From Phycisphaeraceae bacterium (GTDB taxonomy: Bacteria > Planctomycetota > Phycisphaerae > Phycisphaerales > SM1A02): a DNA stretch of 64,000 nucleotides. The stretch covers positions 1,679,205 through 1,743,204 of the forward strand of contig CP054178.1 in NCBI GenBank assembly GCA_015709595.1, read 5' to 3'. The position numbers were made by a program, and so were the translations under genes. Shown in pieces: positions 5,567 to 50,221 of this stretch. Under the pieces are notes generated by a model. It ran no database searches. It was not told the origin of the DNA and saw nothing but the letters and a program-made list of their open reading frames with translations. Numbering within the stretch: the stretch's first letter is position 1; each line of letters opens with the position of its first letter.

Positions 5567-6976
5567 ATGCTGGAAGTGAAATCCATGTGGACATCAGTCA
5601 GCAGGACATTGTGCATTCAGGCCGTGATGTTCTTGTCCTGTGCGATCGGCGTGACCTCTGGCCCAGCTGTTTTGATTTCGGTGTCGTTTCCGACCACACA
5701 GGACCCCCAGCAGCGGTCCCGCGAGATGGTCGAGATCCGCATCCGCGAGCCGGAATGGACCGCTCTGCTCGATCGCCTGCGGCTGAACACGGCACAGGTC
5801 GAGACGGCGCGGCAGGCGTACGCCGCGTATCAGAAGGGGCTGGCCGAGCTGGATGGGCGCATCATGCAGCGCGCGTTGCGTGAGATCGGGGTGGAGGACC
5901 TGAGCCAGGCGCCACAGGTGCTGCGGTCGATGGACCCAGCCGATCAGGCGGCCTTCACCCAGCGGCTGCAGCGCCTGGTGCGCGGCAGCCGGGGCGAGTC
6001 GGATGCGCTGCGTCAGACGCTGCTCGGCATGGTGAAGGAGGCGCTGAACGACGAGCAGGCCGCGCGGTGGCCGGGCGCGGTGCTGGCGCTCAAGCGGGCC
6101 ATCATGCTCAACCCGCGGCTCGACCCGCGCAGCGCCAACGTGAGCATGAACCTGGGCGTCCACATCGACCTGATGACGCTGGTGGAAGAGGCCGCGACGC
6201 CGGAAGGCGAACTGGCGTCGCTGCTCGCCGCGCCCGACCCGGCGCCGGCGGCGGACGATCCGTGGCACGAGCGACACGCCGAGGCGGTGCGCGCCCTGGA
6301 TGACTACCAGGCGCGGCTGGATGCGCTGCTTGACGCCGAGGCCCTGACGACGATGGATGCGCTGCAGGATCTCCGCGCCGCCGCCATGGGGGGCGACATG
6401 GCTGCCGTCGCGCGCCTCCACAAGCGCATGTGGAGTTACCGGGAGCGGTTGTACCGTCTCAATGAGTCCGCCGCGGCGCAGTTGGCCCGCGGGCTGGAGC
6501 AACTGGGCGAGCCGCACAACGCCCGCCGGTGGCTGGAGCGGGTGTACGCGGCGCATTTCCCGGAGATTCACCGCGCCGAGTTCATCGATCACCTCGCGGA
6601 TCGCCTGCTGCGGGACGCGACGATGGATGAGGCCGCGAAGAGCCACGTGCGCGAGATCATGGCCCAGCACGAGCGCACGCGCGACGCTCTGCGCGCCCAG
6701 TTGCGCGCCGCGGTGCTGAAGGTGCATGAAACCGCGTCGCCCTACCTGCCGCCGGATGCGTCGTTGCTGCGGGAGTTCGATGGGCTGATCACGCGCTGGA
6801 GCGAGCAGCACGCCGGCACGATCGCACAGCTGCGCGGGGCCGCCACGCCCGAGGCCCGCGCGGCGATGGATCAGTTCATCGAATCGAACGAGTCGATGCG
6901 CCTCAACCAGCCGCCGTCGGACCGGATGATCGACTGGCTGCGGGCGCAGGCGGCTCAGCGGGGCGAGGTGGAGTGA
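5567..6976 (+). CDS. Secreted alpha-helical protein of unknown function
   Basis: Up to 469 residues, with an ATG also at 5585. A hydrophobic signal segment (residues about 10-40) is followed by a long Glu/Arg/Ala/Leu-rich, mostly helical protein with coiled-coil character throughout. No catalytic motif is seen. The first 130 bases use less GC-biased codons like the genes before it, and then the composition changes abruptly to the high-GC pattern near 5700. The gene therefore straddles a compositional boundary at the signal peptide. It resembles the protein at 10164 in length and in an N-terminal LRL....Q pattern, possibly a paralogous family (weak). Confidence 0.6.
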   Translation: MLEVKSMWTSVSRTLCIQAVMFLSCAIGVTSGPAVLISVSFPTTQDPQQRSREMVEIRIREPEWTALLDRLRLNTAQVETARQAYAAYQKGLAELDGRIMQRALREIGVEDLSQAPQVLRSMDPADQAAFTQRLQRLVRGSRGESDALRQTLLGMVKEALNDEQAARWPGAVLALKRAIMLNPRLDPRSANVSMNLGVHIDLMTLVEEAATPEGELASLLAAPDPAPAADDPWHERHAEAVRALDDYQARLDALLDAEALTTMDALQDLRAAAMGGDMAAVARLHKRMWSYRERLYRLNESAAAQLARGLEQLGEPHNARRWLERVYAAHFPEIHRAEFIDHLADRLLRDATMDEAAKSHVREIMAQHERTRDALRAQLRAAVLKVHETASPYLPPDASLLREFDGLITRWSEQHAGTIAQLRGAATPEARAAMDQFIESNESMRLNQPPSDRMIDWLRAQAAQRGEVE

Positions 6977-7279: not shown

Positions 7280-8323
7280 TCAGCGGTTGGCTCTGCCGCC
7301 CCCTCCGCCGCCGCCGCGACCGAAGCCGCCGCGCAGTTCGTTGGCGTCGAGCGCGCCGTCGCCGTTGGCGTCGAGGCGATCGAACATCTGCTGCATCTGC
7401 GTGGGGACTTCGTCCTTCTGGAGCTTGCCGTCGCCGTTCTTGTCGAACTGCTGGATGATCTGCGCCCCGCCCGCGCCGCCGCCCACGCCCGGTCCGCCGG
7501 AGGCGCGCTGGAACTGTCCGAACTGCTCCTCGTTGAGCAGTTCCTTGACTTCATCCATCATCTTCTGGCGTGCCTGCATGACGGCCTGGATGGTGGCCTG
7601 CCGGTCGCTGGCGTTCTCGCGGGCCTTGGCGGCGGAGACCACGTATTCCTCGACGGCCCAGAGCACGCCCAGATGCGTCTCGGGGGCGAGCTTCATCTTG
7701 TTGACCGCGTTGGCCATGTTGTCCCACTGGGGATCGAAGGAGCCGAACGCCGCCAGAGCACGCTCGTACACCTTGCCCTCAACGACGCCCTTGAGGTCGG
7801 CGGCGAGTTTCTCACGCTCGGCCTTGTTGAGGTTGTCGAGGGCCTGCTGGAACTCGCCCATGGGGCCGCCAGGGGCGCCTCCGCCGGGAGGCGCACCGGC
7901 GCCGCCTCCACCGCCACGCCCTTCACCGCCTCGTCCACCCCCGCCGCCCCCGGCTCCGCCTCCACCACCGCCCTGGCCGCCTCGTCCCCCGCCTTCGCCG
8001 CCGCGCTCTCGGATCTGCTCGCGAATGGTCTCGCGCATCTTGGCGTTGGCGTCGGCATGGCTCTGACGCGACTTCTGGTACACCTCGACCAGTTTCTTCG
8101 TGGTCGCGTCATCAAGGTTCTGGCCGGCCGCGAGCGCCTTGGCCTGCGACTCCCACGCGGCCTTGGCCTCCTCGGGCGTCAGCGGCTGCTGACGGGCGCC
8201 GGCGGGCTGACCGGCGGGGCGCTCGCCACCCTGCGGCGGACGAACGGGGCGATCCTGGGCCAGCACGGGCGAGGCGATCACGCCGATCAACGCAGCCGTG
8301 GCCACCAGTTTCATCGAACGCAT
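7280..8323 (-). CDS. Secreted EF-hand protein with Gly-rich linker
   Basis: A 347-residue protein with a signal peptide (MRSMKLVATAALIGVIASP, cleavage after VLA). A Pro/Gln-rich segment and a helical domain follow, then a Gly/Arg-rich linker of about 45 residues (residues about 108-155). A second helical domain leads into two EF-hand loops near the C-terminus, DKNGDGKLQKDE and DANGDGALDANE. Both have Asp/Asn at the calcium-coordinating positions and Glu at position 12, so calcium binding is expected. The ribosome site CAGGAG precedes the ATG. EF-hand proteins of this kind are abundant in planctomycetes. The biological role is unknown. Confidence 0.8.
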   Translation of the reverse strand: MRSMKLVATAALIGVIASPVLAQDRPVRPPQGGERPAGQPAGARQQPLTPEEAKAAWESQAKALAAGQNLDDATTKKLVEVYQKSRQSHADANAKMRETIREQIRERGGEGGGRGGQGGGGGGAGGGGGGRGGEGRGGGGGAGAPPGGGAPGGPMGEFQQALDNLNKAEREKLAADLKGVVEGKVYERALAAFGSFDPQWDNMANAVNKMKLAPETHLGVLWAVEEYVVSAAKARENASDRQATIQAVMQARQKMMDEVKELLNEEQFGQFQRASGGPGVGGGAGGAQIIQQFDKNGDGKLQKDEVPTQMQQMFDRLDANGDGALDANELRGGFGRGGGGGGGRANR

Positions 8324-8653
8324 GGCGTCAACTCCTGATTGTGGTTGGTCCGAACCTGCGGCATCGGGCGATCCACCCGCCTGCCGGAACTGCTCAACGC
8401 CTCACTCGCCCGGCCATTGCCGCACGAGATGGCGGTGAAGTATGTACGAGGGGCGATGGAAAGGCCATCCCCCGATGGCCGCCGGCTGGGATTTCGGACT
8501 CGGAAGCCGCCCGATCCTTGGTTTCAGGTTCTCAGCCCTCCTCAGCCCCCCGCGGCGTTCCTCCTTGTCCCCGGCGTGTTCCGCCAATAGGATCACGTCC
8601 GCCCAGCCCCGGCAGCGGGGAGGGGTGTTTGTGTCCCCACAGGGAGCCAGTCC
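8324..8653. other. Divergent intergenic region
   Basis: This region separates the minus-strand EF-hand gene from the plus-strand TPR/alpha-CTD gene and must hold both promoters. No convincing -35/-10 pair, operator or RNA structure could be picked out by eye. The ribosome site AGGGAG at 8641 serves the GTG start at 8654. Confidence 0.4.
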
Positions 8654-9583
8654 GTGACAGAAGATGTGCTCGACATGATGATCGGCTCGACCGTGAAGGC
8701 CGCCGACCCCAAGGCCGCCAGGGAAGCGTTTGAGAAGGCCCAGCAGCATGAGCGGGCCGGGGAGCGCTACCAGGCCATCGAGCACTATCGACGGGCGGTG
8801 GAGCTGGACGCCACGAAGAACGAATACAAGTTCCGGCTGGCGTTCCACCTCGACCTGGTCGGCGAGGAGCACGAGGCGCTGGCCCTGTACGAGGAAATCG
8901 CCAACAACCCCTCGCCTCCGCTCAACGCGCTGCTCAACCTGGCGGTGATGTACGAGGACCGGGGGGACATCAACCGGGCCGAGAAGTGCCTGCGGCAGAT
9001 TCTGGACACGCAGCCCACGCATCCGCGGGCCACGCTGTACATGAAGGACGTGCTGGCCTCGCGCAACATGGTCTACGACGAGGAGCACGTGCGCGACGTG
9101 GCCAAGCGCAACGCCCTGCTCGACACACCCGTGACTGACTTCGAGCTCTCCGTCCGCGCCCGCAACTGCCTCAAGAAGATGCAGATCCGCACGCTGGGCG
9201 ACCTCCTGAAGGTCACCGAGGCGGAACTGCTCTCCTACAAGAACTTCGGCGAGACCTCGCTGGTCGAGATCAAGGCCATGCTCGCCGCCAAGGGGCTGAA
9301 GTTGGGACAGGGGCTGGAGGGCACGGGCCGCATCCGCCGGGAGGTCTACGAGGAACTCAAGGGCAAGGCCCCCGAAGCGGTGCTCAACAAGCCGATCTCG
9401 GTGCTGGACCTCTCCGTCCGCGCCCGCAAGGCGCTGCAGCTGCTCAACATCCAGACGCTCGGCGACCTGGCCACCCGCACCGAGGCGGAACTGATGGGCG
9501 TGAAGAACTTCGGCGCCACTTCACTGATGGAAGTGAAGGAGAAGCTGGCCCATCACGGGCTGCAGTTGCGCACGCTGGATTGA
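8654..9583 (+). CDS. TPR protein with two RNA polymerase alpha-CTD-like domains
   Basis: A 309-residue cytoplasmic protein starting at GTG 8654 behind AGGGAG. Residues about 20-130 are TPR-like (ERYQAIEHYRRAVELDA, then LNLAVMYEDRGDINRAEKCL). Residues about 157-215 read ELSVRARNCLKKMQIRTLGD, then TEAELLSYKNFGETSLVEIK. Residues about 249-305 read DLSVRARKALQLLNIQTLGD, then TEAELMGVKNFGATSLMEVK. Both blocks carry the alpha-CTD hallmarks: L S.R....L....I.T..DL, then TEAEL...KNFG..SL.EIK. In RNA polymerase this domain binds UP elements and activators. Here it is doubled and fused to protein-interaction repeats without the alpha N-terminal domain. A role in transcription is likely but inferred. A terminator follows at 9669. 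Confidence 0.85.
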   Translation: MTEDVLDMMIGSTVKAADPKAAREAFEKAQQHERAGERYQAIEHYRRAVELDATKNEYKFRLAFHLDLVGEEHEALALYEEIANNPSPPLNALLNLAVMYEDRGDINRAEKCLRQILDTQPTHPRATLYMKDVLASRNMVYDEEHVRDVAKRNALLDTPVTDFELSVRARNCLKKMQIRTLGDLLKVTEAELLSYKNFGETSLVEIKAMLAAKGLKLGQGLEGTGRIRREVYEELKGKAPEAVLNKPISVLDLSVRARKALQLLNIQTLGDLATRTEAELMGVKNFGATSLMEVKEKLAHHGLQLRTLD

Positions 9584-9722: not shown

Positions 9723-9746
9723 CTCTCTCTCTCTCTCTCTCTCTCT
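9723..9746 (+). repeat. (CT)12 dinucleotide microsatellite
   Basis: Twelve uninterrupted CT units lie just after the T-run of the preceding terminator and about 80 bases upstream of the next start codon. Such simple tracts are rare in high-GC bacterial DNA and are prone to slippage. Confidence 0.95.
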
Positions 9747-9828: not shown

Positions 9829-10167
9829 ATGATGTCAGGGAAGTACGCGATCTGGGGCGTCTGCTTGGCGGTTGGAATCGCAACCAGCGGAAGCACATAC
9901 GCCGATGCGTTTCCGTATGGAATGAATGGTTTCTCGGAGCTGTTTCCTGATGGATACGAGGGTTATCCAGGGGGTCACGACGACAACGATGACAAGCCCG
10001 ATGGTGGCAAGGGCGGCGACGCGGGTGACGGCGCTCCGCCCGGAAACGCGCGCTCAGGCGGCGCTGGGGGGAGTGGATCGAATGGAGCGTCCGCCGGGCA
10101 GAGCGGTGCTTCGGGAGCGGCCGGCAACCACATGATCTGTCAGCCGAGCGGAGGGGGTGGCACGTGA
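9829..10167 (+). CDS. Small secreted Gly/Asp-rich protein
   Basis: A 112-residue protein from the ATG at 9829 (an ATG at 9832 is equally possible), behind a GGGAG ribosome site. The signal peptide (KYAIWGVCLAVGIATSG, cleavage near TYADA) is followed by an acidic DDNDDKPDGGK segment and a Gly/Ala/Ser-rich tail (GGAGGSGSNGASAGQSG). The low-complexity mature part gives no functional clue. Its stop overlaps the GTG of the next gene (GTGA at 10164-10167), so the two are coupled. Confidence 0.55.
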   Translation: MMSGKYAIWGVCLAVGIATSGSTYADAFPYGMNGFSELFPDGYEGYPGGHDDNDDKPDGGKGGDAGDGAPPGNARSGGAGGSGSNGASAGQSGASGAAGNHMICQPSGGGGT

Positions 10168-11573
10168 ATCCACAGAGCCGGGTTGGCATATTCGCTTTGA
10201 TGGCCGTCGTCCTTGTCACTCTGCTCATTCCTGCAACGCCCGCTGCTTCGCAGGTGAATGCGCCAATCATGGAGGACGAACTGAAGCGATACACTCGCTG
10301 GCTGCGTCTCACTGACGATCAAATACACCTGATGAAGCAGTTCCATCAGGAGTACGAGGCGCAAAGCCGAGCGGACGTCTTCGAGGACGCTCGCAACTAT
10401 TGGCAAGCACTCCAGCACCTTTCGCGCCGCGCCGATGGTCGGGTTCCCGGCGCCCCACGAGAGGATCCTGCGACGTTTCTGCATCGCGAGTACGCCATCC
10501 TCGAAGCGCAACGGCTCGACCTGACGCGCCGCAAGACGGAGCTGGATGCGCAGTTCTTCGATGACGTTCGGTCACTTCTGTCCAAGGAGGCGCTGCCTCG
10601 CATGCAGCGCGTTGAACTCGGACGCACACGACTGTTCTACAACCGCTATCGCGGCGGTCTGCCTGGAGGCAACGTCGATCTCATGGAGCTGATCGACTCC
10701 CTGCCGCTCTCTCAGGACGACTACGACCGCATCGAGCGCGGGTTCATCATGGAGTTCGAGCCGCTCTGGGTTGCCGCCGTCGAGCGCCGGATGGAGAACG
10801 ACCGTGCATGCGGCGTGCGATACTTCGAGGTTCGGGCGCTCAGATACCGCCTCGAGTACGGCGGCCTGTCGGAGCAGGAGCAGTCTCAACTGGGCGTGGA
10901 GATTCTGCGACTCAATCGTGAAATTGGAAAGGATAAGATCGGACCGGAACTCATGCTCGTGGATCTGAACGGCCGGTCGATTCCTCAGATTCTCGAACTC
11001 CTGCCCGAAGACATTCGCCCCCTGTTCATGCAGATGTGGCTTGAGACGTCGTATCCGATGGTCTACCCGGACCCGGCCGACGCCGAGGTTCTGTACGCCC
11101 ACGCCTATGAACTCGATGATCTGACGGATGACCAGCGCACAGCCGTCGAATCACTGCACCAACGATTCAGTTGGCATCACGACCTGCTCACCGAGCGCAT
11201 GGCCGAGGCGGTGTTCTTTCGTCGGCGAGCGGGTCTGGCGGGCGACCCGCCTGAGTACGGCACGAGCAGTCAGCACGAGGTGACCGTGCTCAACATCGGC
11301 GAGCAGCGCGAGGTGCTCAACCAGCAGCAGTTGTCGCTTCTGGCCATGGTGCTGACGCCTGAGCAGATGGCTGGCTTCCCCGAGTGGGACTTCAAGAAGA
11401 ACCCGCGCCCCCGCCCGTGGGACTTGACCTACGAGGACCGGCGGAAGGACGCAATCAAGCGCCGACTGCTGGAGTCGTTCCGCGAGCCGGGCGAGTTCGA
11501 ACGGTACGTGGAGAAGCGCCAGCAGGAACTCAAGCAGCAGGAAGAGGAGTGGCGCAAGAAGCACGAGAAGTAA
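10164..11573 (+). CDS. Secreted alpha-helical protein of unknown function
   Basis: A 469-residue protein starting at GTG, overlapping the previous stop by four bases. The N-terminus is a signal peptide (LMAVVLVTLLIPATPAASQ). The rest is highly charged and helical, ending in a Lys/Glu/Gln-rich coiled-coil tail (KRQQELKQQEEEWRKKHEK). No enzyme motif was recognised. The start of the mature region (WLRLTDDQIHLMKQFHQEY) is loosely like the LRLNTAQVETARQAYAAY stretch of the protein at 5567. Both follow small secreted proteins, so they may be distant members of one lineage-specific family. Confidence 0.6.
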   Translation: MNPQSRVGIFALMAVVLVTLLIPATPAASQVNAPIMEDELKRYTRWLRLTDDQIHLMKQFHQEYEAQSRADVFEDARNYWQALQHLSRRADGRVPGAPREDPATFLHREYAILEAQRLDLTRRKTELDAQFFDDVRSLLSKEALPRMQRVELGRTRLFYNRYRGGLPGGNVDLMELIDSLPLSQDDYDRIERGFIMEFEPLWVAAVERRMENDRACGVRYFEVRALRYRLEYGGLSEQEQSQLGVEILRLNREIGKDKIGPELMLVDLNGRSIPQILELLPEDIRPLFMQMWLETSYPMVYPDPADAEVLYAHAYELDDLTDDQRTAVESLHQRFSWHHDLLTERMAEAVFFRRRAGLAGDPPEYGTSSQHEVTVLNIGEQREVLNQQQLSLLAMVLTPEQMAGFPEWDFKKNPRPRPWDLTYEDRRKDAIKRRLLESFREPGEFERYVEKRQQELKQQEEEWRKKHEK

Positions 11574-48054: not shown

Positions 48055-49554
48055 ATGAAAGACGCAGGCGCAGCGTTCCCTACCATCCACAGGGGCGGTC
48101 CGACCACAACCACGTGGCTGGCGATTGGCGTCGTGCTCGTCATGGCCATCGCGGGTCTGGGCGTTCGCCCACTTTGGGAGCCGGATGAGGGTCGCTACGT
48201 GGCGGTGGCGCTGGAGATGCTGCGGAGCGGGGACTGGCTGCACCCGGCGCTGCATCATGAGCATCCGCACTACACGAAGCCCCCGCTGACGTACTGGGCC
48301 ATTGCGGCATCCATCGGAATCTTCGGCCCGCACGAATGGGCGGCCCGGCTTCCCAACGCGCTGGCGTTCATCGGCGCCGCGCTGTGCGTCGCCGGGCTGG
48401 CCCGCCGCATCGCGCCCGGGCGGGCCGCCGTGTGCGCCATGGTCTACGCCACCGCCGCCATGCCGTTCATCGCCCATCAGATCGTCACCACCGACACGCT
48501 GCTGACCCTGTTCACAACCGCCGGTGTGACATTCTTCGTGTACGGATGGCGTTCCGGACAGACGTACGGACGCCGGTGGATGGACGCGATGTGGCTGGCG
48601 TTCGGCCTTGGGTTTCTGACCAAGGGGCCGCCCTCGCTGCTGCCGCTGGCGGCGGTGCTCGGCGCGGTCCTGATCCACGACGGGCCGGGCGGCCTGCGGC
48701 GCCTGCTGTCGCCCGTCGGCGTGACGCTCTTTCTCGCGGTGGGCGGTGGGTGGTTCGCCCTCGTCATGCTGCAGAAGCCGGAACTCGCCGGGTACTTCCT
48801 TCACGACGAGTTCATCAATCGCGTCGCCAGCGACGCGCATCATCGGAACGCCGAGTGGTACAAGGCGATGATGTACCCCGGCCTGCTGGTCGCCGGCATG
48901 CTGCCCTGGGCGATCGGATGGTTTCGTCAGCCCCAATGGTGGCGGCCCGCGTGGCTGGTCAGGTGGCTGCGTGATCCGTTGCTGGCGCTGATGCTGCTCT
49001 GGATCGGTCTGTCGCTGATGGTGTTCATGCTCTCCAGTTCGCGACTGCCGCTCTACATTCTCCCGCTGTTTCCGGCGCTGGCGGTCTGCACCGGACGGAT
49101 CATGCCGCTGTCTTTTCCTCATGATCGCGGGGCGCGGGCCTCGCTGGCGGCGACGGTTGGAATCGCCCTTCTGATCACGGCCGCCGGCGCGGTCATCGAA
49201 AGCCCGAAGGACGCCCGCCGCATGACGGCGGAGCTTCACCTCACGCCGGGCCTCGCCGAGGTGGTCTACGTCGATCGCCATCCGGTGTACGGCGTGTCGT
49301 TCTATTCGGGGCTTTCCGTTGAAGAGGTCGCGCTCCTTGATGATGCAAGGCCCGGCGCTCATTCCTTTGCGCAGGAGCTGGCCGAACGGGAGGGCCGCCT
49401 GGCCTTCGTAATCGGCTCGGACAAGGCCGACGCCCTGCGGCGGGCGCTGCGGGATGGACAGTGGCGCATCATCGACGAGATCGCTTATCGCAACAAGGTT
49501 CGCATCGTCGCCGAACCGGAGTCATCGCCGGAATCACGTGACAGGACCAGTTGA
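48055..49554 (+). CDS. ArnT-like lipid-linked glycosyltransferase, GT83 type
   Basis: About 499 residues with about 10 or more membrane helices. PLWEPDEGRYVAVALEML (the DE.R motif) and LHHEHPHYTKPPLTYWAIA (the K.P..W motif) are hallmarks of ArnT-type transferases, which move a sugar from a polyprenyl phosphate to lipid A or other acceptors. A GT83 or related PMT assignment follows. Several further helices carry ALFLTKGPPSLLPL-like stretches. A 90-residue C-terminal soluble domain is short for ArnT. The donor and acceptor are not known. The start at 48055 behind GGGAGGCAAG was chosen over the GTG at 48034. ruvA follows 31 bases later. Confidence 0.82.
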   Translation: MKDAGAAFPTIHRGGPTTTTWLAIGVVLVMAIAGLGVRPLWEPDEGRYVAVALEMLRSGDWLHPALHHEHPHYTKPPLTYWAIAASIGIFGPHEWAARLPNALAFIGAALCVAGLARRIAPGRAAVCAMVYATAAMPFIAHQIVTTDTLLTLFTTAGVTFFVYGWRSGQTYGRRWMDAMWLAFGLGFLTKGPPSLLPLAAVLGAVLIHDGPGGLRRLLSPVGVTLFLAVGGGWFALVMLQKPELAGYFLHDEFINRVASDAHHRNAEWYKAMMYPGLLVAGMLPWAIGWFRQPQWWRPAWLVRWLRDPLLALMLLWIGLSLMVFMLSSSRLPLYILPLFPALAVCTGRIMPLSFPHDRGARASLAATVGIALLITAAGAVIESPKDARRMTAELHLTPGLAEVVYVDRHPVYGVSFYSGLSVEEVALLDDARPGAHSFAQELAEREGRLAFVIGSDKADALRRALRDGQWRIIDEIAYRNKVRIVAEPESSPESRDRTS

Positions 49555-49585
49555 CCCGTTCGGTCCGGCGCGGTTCCATACGCCC

Positions 49586-50221
49586 GTGATCAGTCGCCTT
49601 CAAGGAACCCTGCGCGTGGTGCGCGACGGTGCGGCGGATGTCCACTGCGGGCATCTCACGTACACGCTCCTCATCCCCGGCGTCGATCAGCAGCGGCTGG
49701 CGCGGCTGGTGGGCGAGACGGTCGAGTTCCATACGCTCCACTACCTCGAAGGTCAGGGGCAGGGGGCCAACTACCTGCCGCGGCTGATCGGCTTCGCCTC
49801 GCCCGAGGATCGCGCCTTCTTCGAAGTCTTCACCACCGTCAAGGGCATTGGCAACCGCAAGGCGCTGCGGGCGCTGCAACTGCCCTTCGCGCAGGTCGCC
49901 GAGGCCATCGCGGGCAAGGACGTGGACACGCTGACCTCGCTGCCGGAGATCGGCAAGCGCACGGCGGAGACGATCATCGCCGAGCTCTCGGGCAAGGTGG
50001 ATCGCTTCCTGAGTCTGCCGGAGTCCGCTCCGGGCCGCCCCGCCCGCGCTCCCGCGGTCCGCTCCATCGCGGACGACGCCATCGCCGTGCTGACCTCGCT
50101 GGGCGAGCCCAAACTGGCGGTCATGCAGCTGGTCGATCGCGCCCTGACCGCCGACCCGGCGATCGGCTCGTCCGAGGAGCTCATCGCTGCGGTGTATCGA
50201 CTCAAGGCCGCGCCGGTGTGA
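49586..50221 (+). CDS. ruvA: Holliday junction DNA helicase subunit RuvA
   Basis: Binds four-way junctions and loads the RuvB motor. It starts VISRLQGTLRVVRDGAADVH (GTG start; the family usually begins MI..L.G.L). FFEVFTTVKGIGNRKALRAL is the first helix-hairpin-helix motif, LPEIGKRTAETIIAELSGKV the second. The C-terminal domain (DDAIAVLTSLGEPKLAVMQL, residues about 160-211) binds RuvB. 211 residues is normal. ruvB and ruvC are not in view. The longer frame upstream covers the 3' end of the glycosyltransferase gene. Confidence 0.92.
   Translation: MISRLQGTLRVVRDGAADVHCGHLTYTLLIPGVDQQRLARLVGETVEFHTLHYLEGQGQGANYLPRLIGFASPEDRAFFEVFTTVKGIGNRKALRALQLPFAQVAEAIAGKDVDTLTSLPEIGKRTAETIIAELSGKVDRFLSLPESAPGRPARAPAVRSIADDAIAVLTSLGEPKLAVMQLVDRALTADPAIGSSEELIAAVYRLKAAPV

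Follow-up and report, generated by a model that had tools for sequence, protein, structure and literature searches.

A protein joining TPR repeats to two RNA polymerase alphaCTD domains, found across the Planctomycetota

Introduction

In model bacteria, the C-terminal domain of the RNA polymerase (RNAP) alpha subunit (alphaCTD) is fixed to the polymerase. Excerpts of PMC11434276 describe the alphaCTD as a hub for many bacterial activators. A gene of a Phycisphaeraceae bacterium (Planctomycetota) raises the question of what such domains do when they are carried, two to a chain, behind TPR repeats on a protein of their own. We examined this gene within a 64,000-nucleotide stretch of the genome (hereafter, the window) and surveyed its relatives across the phylum. 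The reading that we consider probable is that the protein is an ancient, phylum-wide transcription factor that would bring alphaCTDs to promoters in trans, linked to a partner bound by its TPR arm.

Gene and domain architecture

The host genome is a single contig of 3.84 Mb, 99.11% complete. The gene and its parts lie in the window as follows.

8641..8646, + strand: AGGGAG, SD-like, 7 nt 5' of the GTG start (read from the sequence)
8654..9583, + strand: gene for the TPR-(alphaCTD)2 protein, 309 aa plus stop (Pfam, NCBIfam, phmmer, AlphaFold2 model)
8711..9073, + strand: TPR solenoid, residues 20-140 (Pfam TPR_1, TPR_2, TPR_8 and TPR_14 over cut-off; model helices 19-138)
9077..9121, + strand: helix 142-156, the joint from TPR to CTD1 (model), 3' of a conserved M-x-Y-D-E-E stretch
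9110..9310, + strand: alphaCTD 1 (CTD1), residues 153-219 (Pfam stretch 151-211)
9155..9157, + strand: R168, Arg265 equivalent of CTD1 (alignment)
9374..9568, + strand: alphaCTD 2 (CTD2), residues 241-305 (second PF03118 match in the ORF, genome positions 1688578-1688754; phmmer)
9419..9421, + strand: R256, Arg265 equivalent of CTD2 (alignment)

The GTG start is plausible because of the AGGGAG upstream and because three relatives (L043, L044, and L048) have a GTG at the corresponding position as their earliest usable in-frame start. A promoter/terminator scan found no terminator and one promoter-like match, which lies inside the coding start. A (CT)n run occupies 9723-9746, about 140 nt 3' of the gene. 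On the other side, a divergent gene (7280-8323, - strand) encodes a Gly-rich protein with EF hands and, by eye, a signal-like start. The region is flanked by two 469-aa proteins of equal length (5567-6976 and 10164-11573), one with weak Pfam matches to DUF4439/TPR and the other with a weak match to LTXXQ; BLASTP found no relatedness between them.

Profile searches bore out the first-pass annotation, which had read the ORF as two alphaCTDs joined to TPR repeats with no alpha N-terminal domain (NTD). Pfam RNA_pol_A_CTD (PF03118) matched two stretches of the 309-aa ORF at 141 bits (cut-off 23.8; E = 9.6e-42), and several TPR models exceeded their cut-offs. The top NCBIfam matches were RpoA models that reach the ORF with their C-terminal parts only, under the full-length cut-offs, and no alpha NTD was found. 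In phmmer searches, residues ~151-223 matched the RNAP alpha chains 1coo, 1lb2, and others, while residues ~240-307 matched other alpha chains (1z3e, 3gfk, and 3ihq). A generic helix-hairpin-helix (HhH) repair domain was rejected on Pfam scores, with HHH_5 reaching 16.8 bits against a cut-off of 27, in keeping with the earlier claim that these are true alphaCTDs. Judged by its profile matches, ORF 8654-9583 is assigned to the alphaCTD domain family and to the TPR proteins, not to RpoA. The NCBIfam models for the BREX kinase PglW and for RpoC (PRK14906) also match the CTD region weakly, the former at 37.7 bits (cut-off 990) and the latter at 23.3 bits (cut-off 1437); the protein is not a member of either family, and these model matches suggest that alphaCTD-like stretches may exist outside RpoA.

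At E ≤ 1, the host genome holds three alphaCTD matches, namely CTD1, CTD2, and the CTD of a separate, complete RpoA of 336 aa; the TPR-(alphaCTD)2 gene is single-copy there. The protein differs from RpoA in having no N-terminal assembly domain, two CTDs per chain, and a TPR arm in front of them.

An AlphaFold2 model of the 309-aa protein (66 sequences; mean pLDDT 91.9, pTM 0.56) places helices of a TPR solenoid at residues 19-138 and a joining helix at 142-156, followed by two compact small helical domains. VIA-align matches span residues 17-140 and thus bear on the TPR part, not the CTDs; the TPR part aligned with 4cgv_B at Z 17.2 and rmsd 1.9 over 126 residues. With the whole model as the Foldseek query, ranks 1-33 were TPR-containing structures, and E. 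coli RNAP alpha followed at rank 34 (8y5l; 37% identity across 89 columns, E = 9.9e-5). In this comparison, of the kind proposed in the first pass, backing for the CTD fold is weak because the 8y5l match has an rmsd of 23.0 and a TMq of 0.21. In a model of a longer relative (L033, 434 aa; mean pLDDT 90.5, pTM 0.64), a single unbroken helix (248-280) runs from the solenoid into CTD1. The mutual placement of TPR and CTDs is uncertain in both models, as their pTM values indicate; this and the weak Foldseek match count against the reading that we favor.

Occurrence across the Planctomycetota

The survey within Planctomycetota covered 294 genomes, 155 of them of best quality. Matches at E ≤ 1e-10 occurred in 290 of the 294 and in all 155 best-quality genomes, mostly two per genome, as expected for the TPR-(alphaCTD)2 gene plus rpoA, and in some genomes one or three. 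A clear orthologue, counted from the match table, was present in 277 of 294 genomes and 153 of 155 best-quality genomes; this count leaves out the 4 genomes without a match and 13 whose best E values (1e-11 to 3e-17) possibly reflect RpoA alone, and includes one genome (G091) that holds only a contig-edge piece and another piece on a second contig. When the 17 left-out genomes and G091 were searched again with a family profile, contig-edge or short fragments appeared in some, including the two good-quality misses (G143 and G031); since the profile brings in many unrelated TPR proteins as well, this re-search cannot prove presence. Among the matches listed from a contig collection (80 of 276 relatives), all bore planctomycete titles except one titled only "bacterium."

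A mobile or phage origin was rejected, since none of the 49 plasmid and 6 phage records with a match covers 80% of the query. Among the rows listed (20 of the 49 plasmid rows and all 6 phage rows, with 40 of 55 rows in a separate listing), the annotated matches were RpoA. Ten loci on viral contigs (L187-L196) have alphaCTD matches. Genes around position 4001 of L187/L188, L189, L190-L193, L194, and L195 encode alphaCTD-like proteins in which no alpha NTD is evident. Pfam scans of three of these (L187, L189, and L190) gave a PF03118 match and no alpha NTD match, as for the planctomycete protein, but, unlike it, one CTD and no TPR match. By eye, no TPR arm was seen in the ORFs of the ten viral loci, although the L190/L191 alignments are reported from query residue 67; PHROG gave no match for L187, L189, L190, or L195. 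The L187 and L189 proteins resemble planctomycete CTD2 by eye (VR[AS]RKC and NFG.TSLNEVR), on which ground phages may carry a CTD2-like alphaCTD module.

Sequence constraint and domain history

In genomes beyond the order of the window, those of other orders in its class among them, most open frames measure ~430-500 aa and carry a longer TPR solenoid; G084 (337 aa) and frames of up to 618 aa are among the exceptions. In the window's own family and order (14 genomes), open frames span 311-433 aa with usable starts near that of the window, and the TPR arm thus looks shortened there, as far as frame lengths and start positions indicate.

An alignment of 136 sequences (93 window-type and 43 others) showed the highest conservation in CTD1. 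The M-x-Y-D-E-E stretch before CTD1 and several TPR positions, including F60, N95, and D102, are nearly invariant. R168 is kept in 98% of the window-type and 100% of the other sequences, and R256 in 100% of both groups.

Residue and identity comparisons drew on the 29 genomes with both proteins, out of 31 (that of the window plus 30 chosen); G081 and G084 lacked a full RpoA match and were excluded. Mean pairwise identity was 0.673 for CTD1, 0.562 for the RpoA NTD, 0.532 for the RpoA CTD, 0.504 for CTD2, and 0.383 for the TPR part. CTD1 identity exceeded that of the RpoA CTD in 376 of 406 pairs, which are non-independent and whose domain borders were set by the analyst. Two of these values count against a trans-acting promoter factor: CTD2 is slightly less conserved than the RpoA CTD, and the lowest identity of all is that of the TPR part.

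An unrooted maximum-likelihood tree was built from 31 CTD1, 31 CTD2, and 32 RpoA CTD sequences (LG+G4, 1000 ultrafast bootstraps); four members of the last set are RpoA-like sequences taken from three further phyla. In this tree, CTD1, CTD2, and the RpoA CTD form three separate groups with supports of 98, 94, and 99. Both CTDs are thus distinct from that of RpoA. With an unrooted tree and domains of only ~65 residues, no root position is claimed. A recent local fusion, or a recent copy of the CTD of the host rpoA, is ruled out by the phylum-wide occurrence together with the tree.

Contact residues of the two CTDs

E. coli numbering was placed via Klebsiella aerogenes RpoA, to whose CTD CTD1 is identical at 34 of 66 aligned residues and CTD2 at 27 of 64. 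An Arg265 equivalent, which the first pass had named as a check, is present in all 29 CTD1, 29 CTD2, and 29 RpoA sequences. With R168 and R256 in place and nearly invariant, the contrary outcome envisaged there, repair-like HhH domains alone, did not arise. CTD1 also shares with RpoA the equivalents of Gly296, Ser299, and Glu302, which we take to be DNA-face residues of the alphaCTD: Gly296 is found in 29/29 CTD1, 27/29 CTD2, and 29/29 RpoA; Ser299 in 29/29, 27/29, and 16/29 (the rest Thr); and Glu302 in 29/29 of each. The equivalent of Asn268 is kept in 28/29 CTD1 and 27/29 RpoA but in 0/29 CTD2 (Lys in 18, Arg in 8), where Cys269 is retained in only 14/29. The loss of Asn268 and often of Cys269 from CTD2 counts against the favored reading, as does the place of Lys298, which is Thr in 26/29 CTD1 and 26/29 CTD2, although it is likewise Thr in 29/29 RpoA. 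According to excerpts of PMC11434276, R265 and N268 of the E. coli alphaCTD bind DNA at its backbone and in its minor groove.

The sigma-facing pair of RpoA likewise has its equivalents in CTD1. Asp259 occurs in 29/29 CTD1 sequences (RpoA, Glu 20 and Asp 4 of 29) and Glu261 in 28/29 (RpoA, Asp 17 and Glu 5 of 29), while CTD2 is mixed at both positions. Passages of PMC5511352 report that D259/E261 of the alphaCTD contact R603 of sigma70. The C-terminus of the host RpoD (...RKLQHPVRRKRLSSFL) contains HPVR, with an Arg kept, by eye, at the place of R603; at residue level, both sides of the sigma contact are therefore present.

These residues bear on two other explanations. The protein could be a competing alphaCTD mimic, a global brake that titrates activators or sigma away from RNAP or blocks UP elements. 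Lacking an NTD, it is unable to join core polymerase in the manner of alpha, and its DNA- and sigma-facing residues are largely retained in CTD1; both points favor a mimic. A mere decoy, however, needs neither two distinct, separately conserved CTD groups nor a TPR arm whose groove positions are nearly invariant, and we consider this explanation improbable. Alternatively, the alphaCTDs may have turned into protein-protein modules (e.g., for NusA or another elongation factor) with DNA binding lost. CTD1 departs consistently from RpoA at position 267 (Arg in 27 and Lys in 2 CTD1; Arg in 27 CTD2; Arg in 2/29 RpoA), at 273 (Met in 29/29 CTD1), and at 297 (Glu in 25/29 CTD1 versus Lys in 19/29 RpoA), and a different CTD1 surface may therefore be under selection; the change at 297 also counts against the favored reading. 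Since the equivalents of Arg265, Gly296, Ser299, and Glu302 are kept in every CTD1 and in nearly every CTD2, such a loss of DNA binding seems quite improbable.

Gene neighborhood

Neighbors were hand-counted at 40 chosen loci of the phylum, with ruvA, ruvB, ruvC, spoIID, and tgt sought by one to three query sequences each; RuvA identity was checked by Pfam for L120 only. At 16/40 loci, a same-strand ruvA starts ≤350 nt downstream, and at 21/40 the distance is ≤2.4 kb. The first sought neighbor is a SpoIID-type gene in 8/40 loci and tgt in 2/40; at 9/40, the downstream flank yielded no ruvA, spoIID, or tgt. The order gene-ruvA-ruvB-...-spoIID-tgt is seen at L120 and L152, and gene-ruvC-ruvA-ruvB-...-spoIID-tgt at L148; ruvA, ruvB, spoIID, and tgt line up in a single stretch at these three loci, suggesting an ancestral planctomycete cluster downstream of the gene.

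The window departs from this pattern. Neither ruvA nor spoIID follows the gene there, and the next gene of many other lineages lies ~40 kb off.

49454..50221, + strand: putative ruvA, ~40 kb from the gene (Pfam at E ≤ 1e-4: HHH_5 only)

Among 13 window-type loci (L129-L133 and eight contig-collection loci), ruvA is near the gene in none, and spoIID follows it in eight, five of these among the eight contig-collection loci.

The recurrent neighbors ruvA, spoIID, and tgt are not transcription genes, which counts against our reading. The frequent adjacency of ruvA in other lineages keeps in play a recombination- or repair-linked DNA-binding factor, whose alphaCTDs would serve as HhH-type DNA grips and whose TPR arm would bind a repair protein, for example the RuvAB machinery. 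That adjacency may instead be inherited operon order, and it is missing from the window-type loci, while 9 of the 40 chosen loci have none of the three genes; the domains, moreover, are RNAP alphaCTDs by Pfam, and CTD1 retains the sigma-contact pair. We regard a recombination role as unlikely.

Proposed role and implications

We return to the probable reading, a factor that carries alphaCTDs to promoters in trans. CTD1 would most likely grip the DNA minor groove through its Arg265/Asn268 face and would use its D259/E261 face to dock next to sigma region 4, like the promoter-proximal alphaCTD of RNAP. CTD2 would provide a second, more divergent DNA contact, and the TPR arm, which a helix connects to CTD1, would bind another protein and so couple that partner to promoters or polymerase. 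We infer that the protein binds DNA, touches sigma or RNAP, holds a partner on its TPR arm, and regulates promoters. The first-pass suggestion of a lineage-specific transcription regulator holds in part: the contact residues fit transcription, but the lineage is the whole phylum, which makes a general factor likelier than a specialist. A bolder version, possible but doubtful, is that this phylum-wide and perhaps essential alphaCTD pair is a detachable accessory subunit of RNAP, in which CTD1, under tighter constraint across the phylum than the CTD of RpoA, routes regulation via the TPR-bound partner.

A TPR-bearing bacterial transcription factor has been described in AfsR, which differs in having SARP and NOD domains; excerpts of PMC10936776 mention no alphaCTD. 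Among the literature matches listed, judged by title or abstract start and with preprints and most subscription journals outside the scope, no description of a TPR-alphaCTD-alphaCTD family was found. We assume that the family may bear automatic names in database annotations. The idea of trans supply is directly testable because a transposon essentiality map is available for Planctopirus limnophila (PMC10632474); the examined text of that map does not name the orthologue, and the examined portions of PMC8567305 and PMC12283558 hold nothing on its essentiality.

The interest of the family lies mainly in its phylum-wide spread and in a CTD1 more conserved than the CTD of RpoA itself. If our reading is true, a near-universal protein of the phylum would bear a pair of alphaCTDs on a protein-binding arm separate from the polymerase, and the alphaCTD hub could be supplied in trans.
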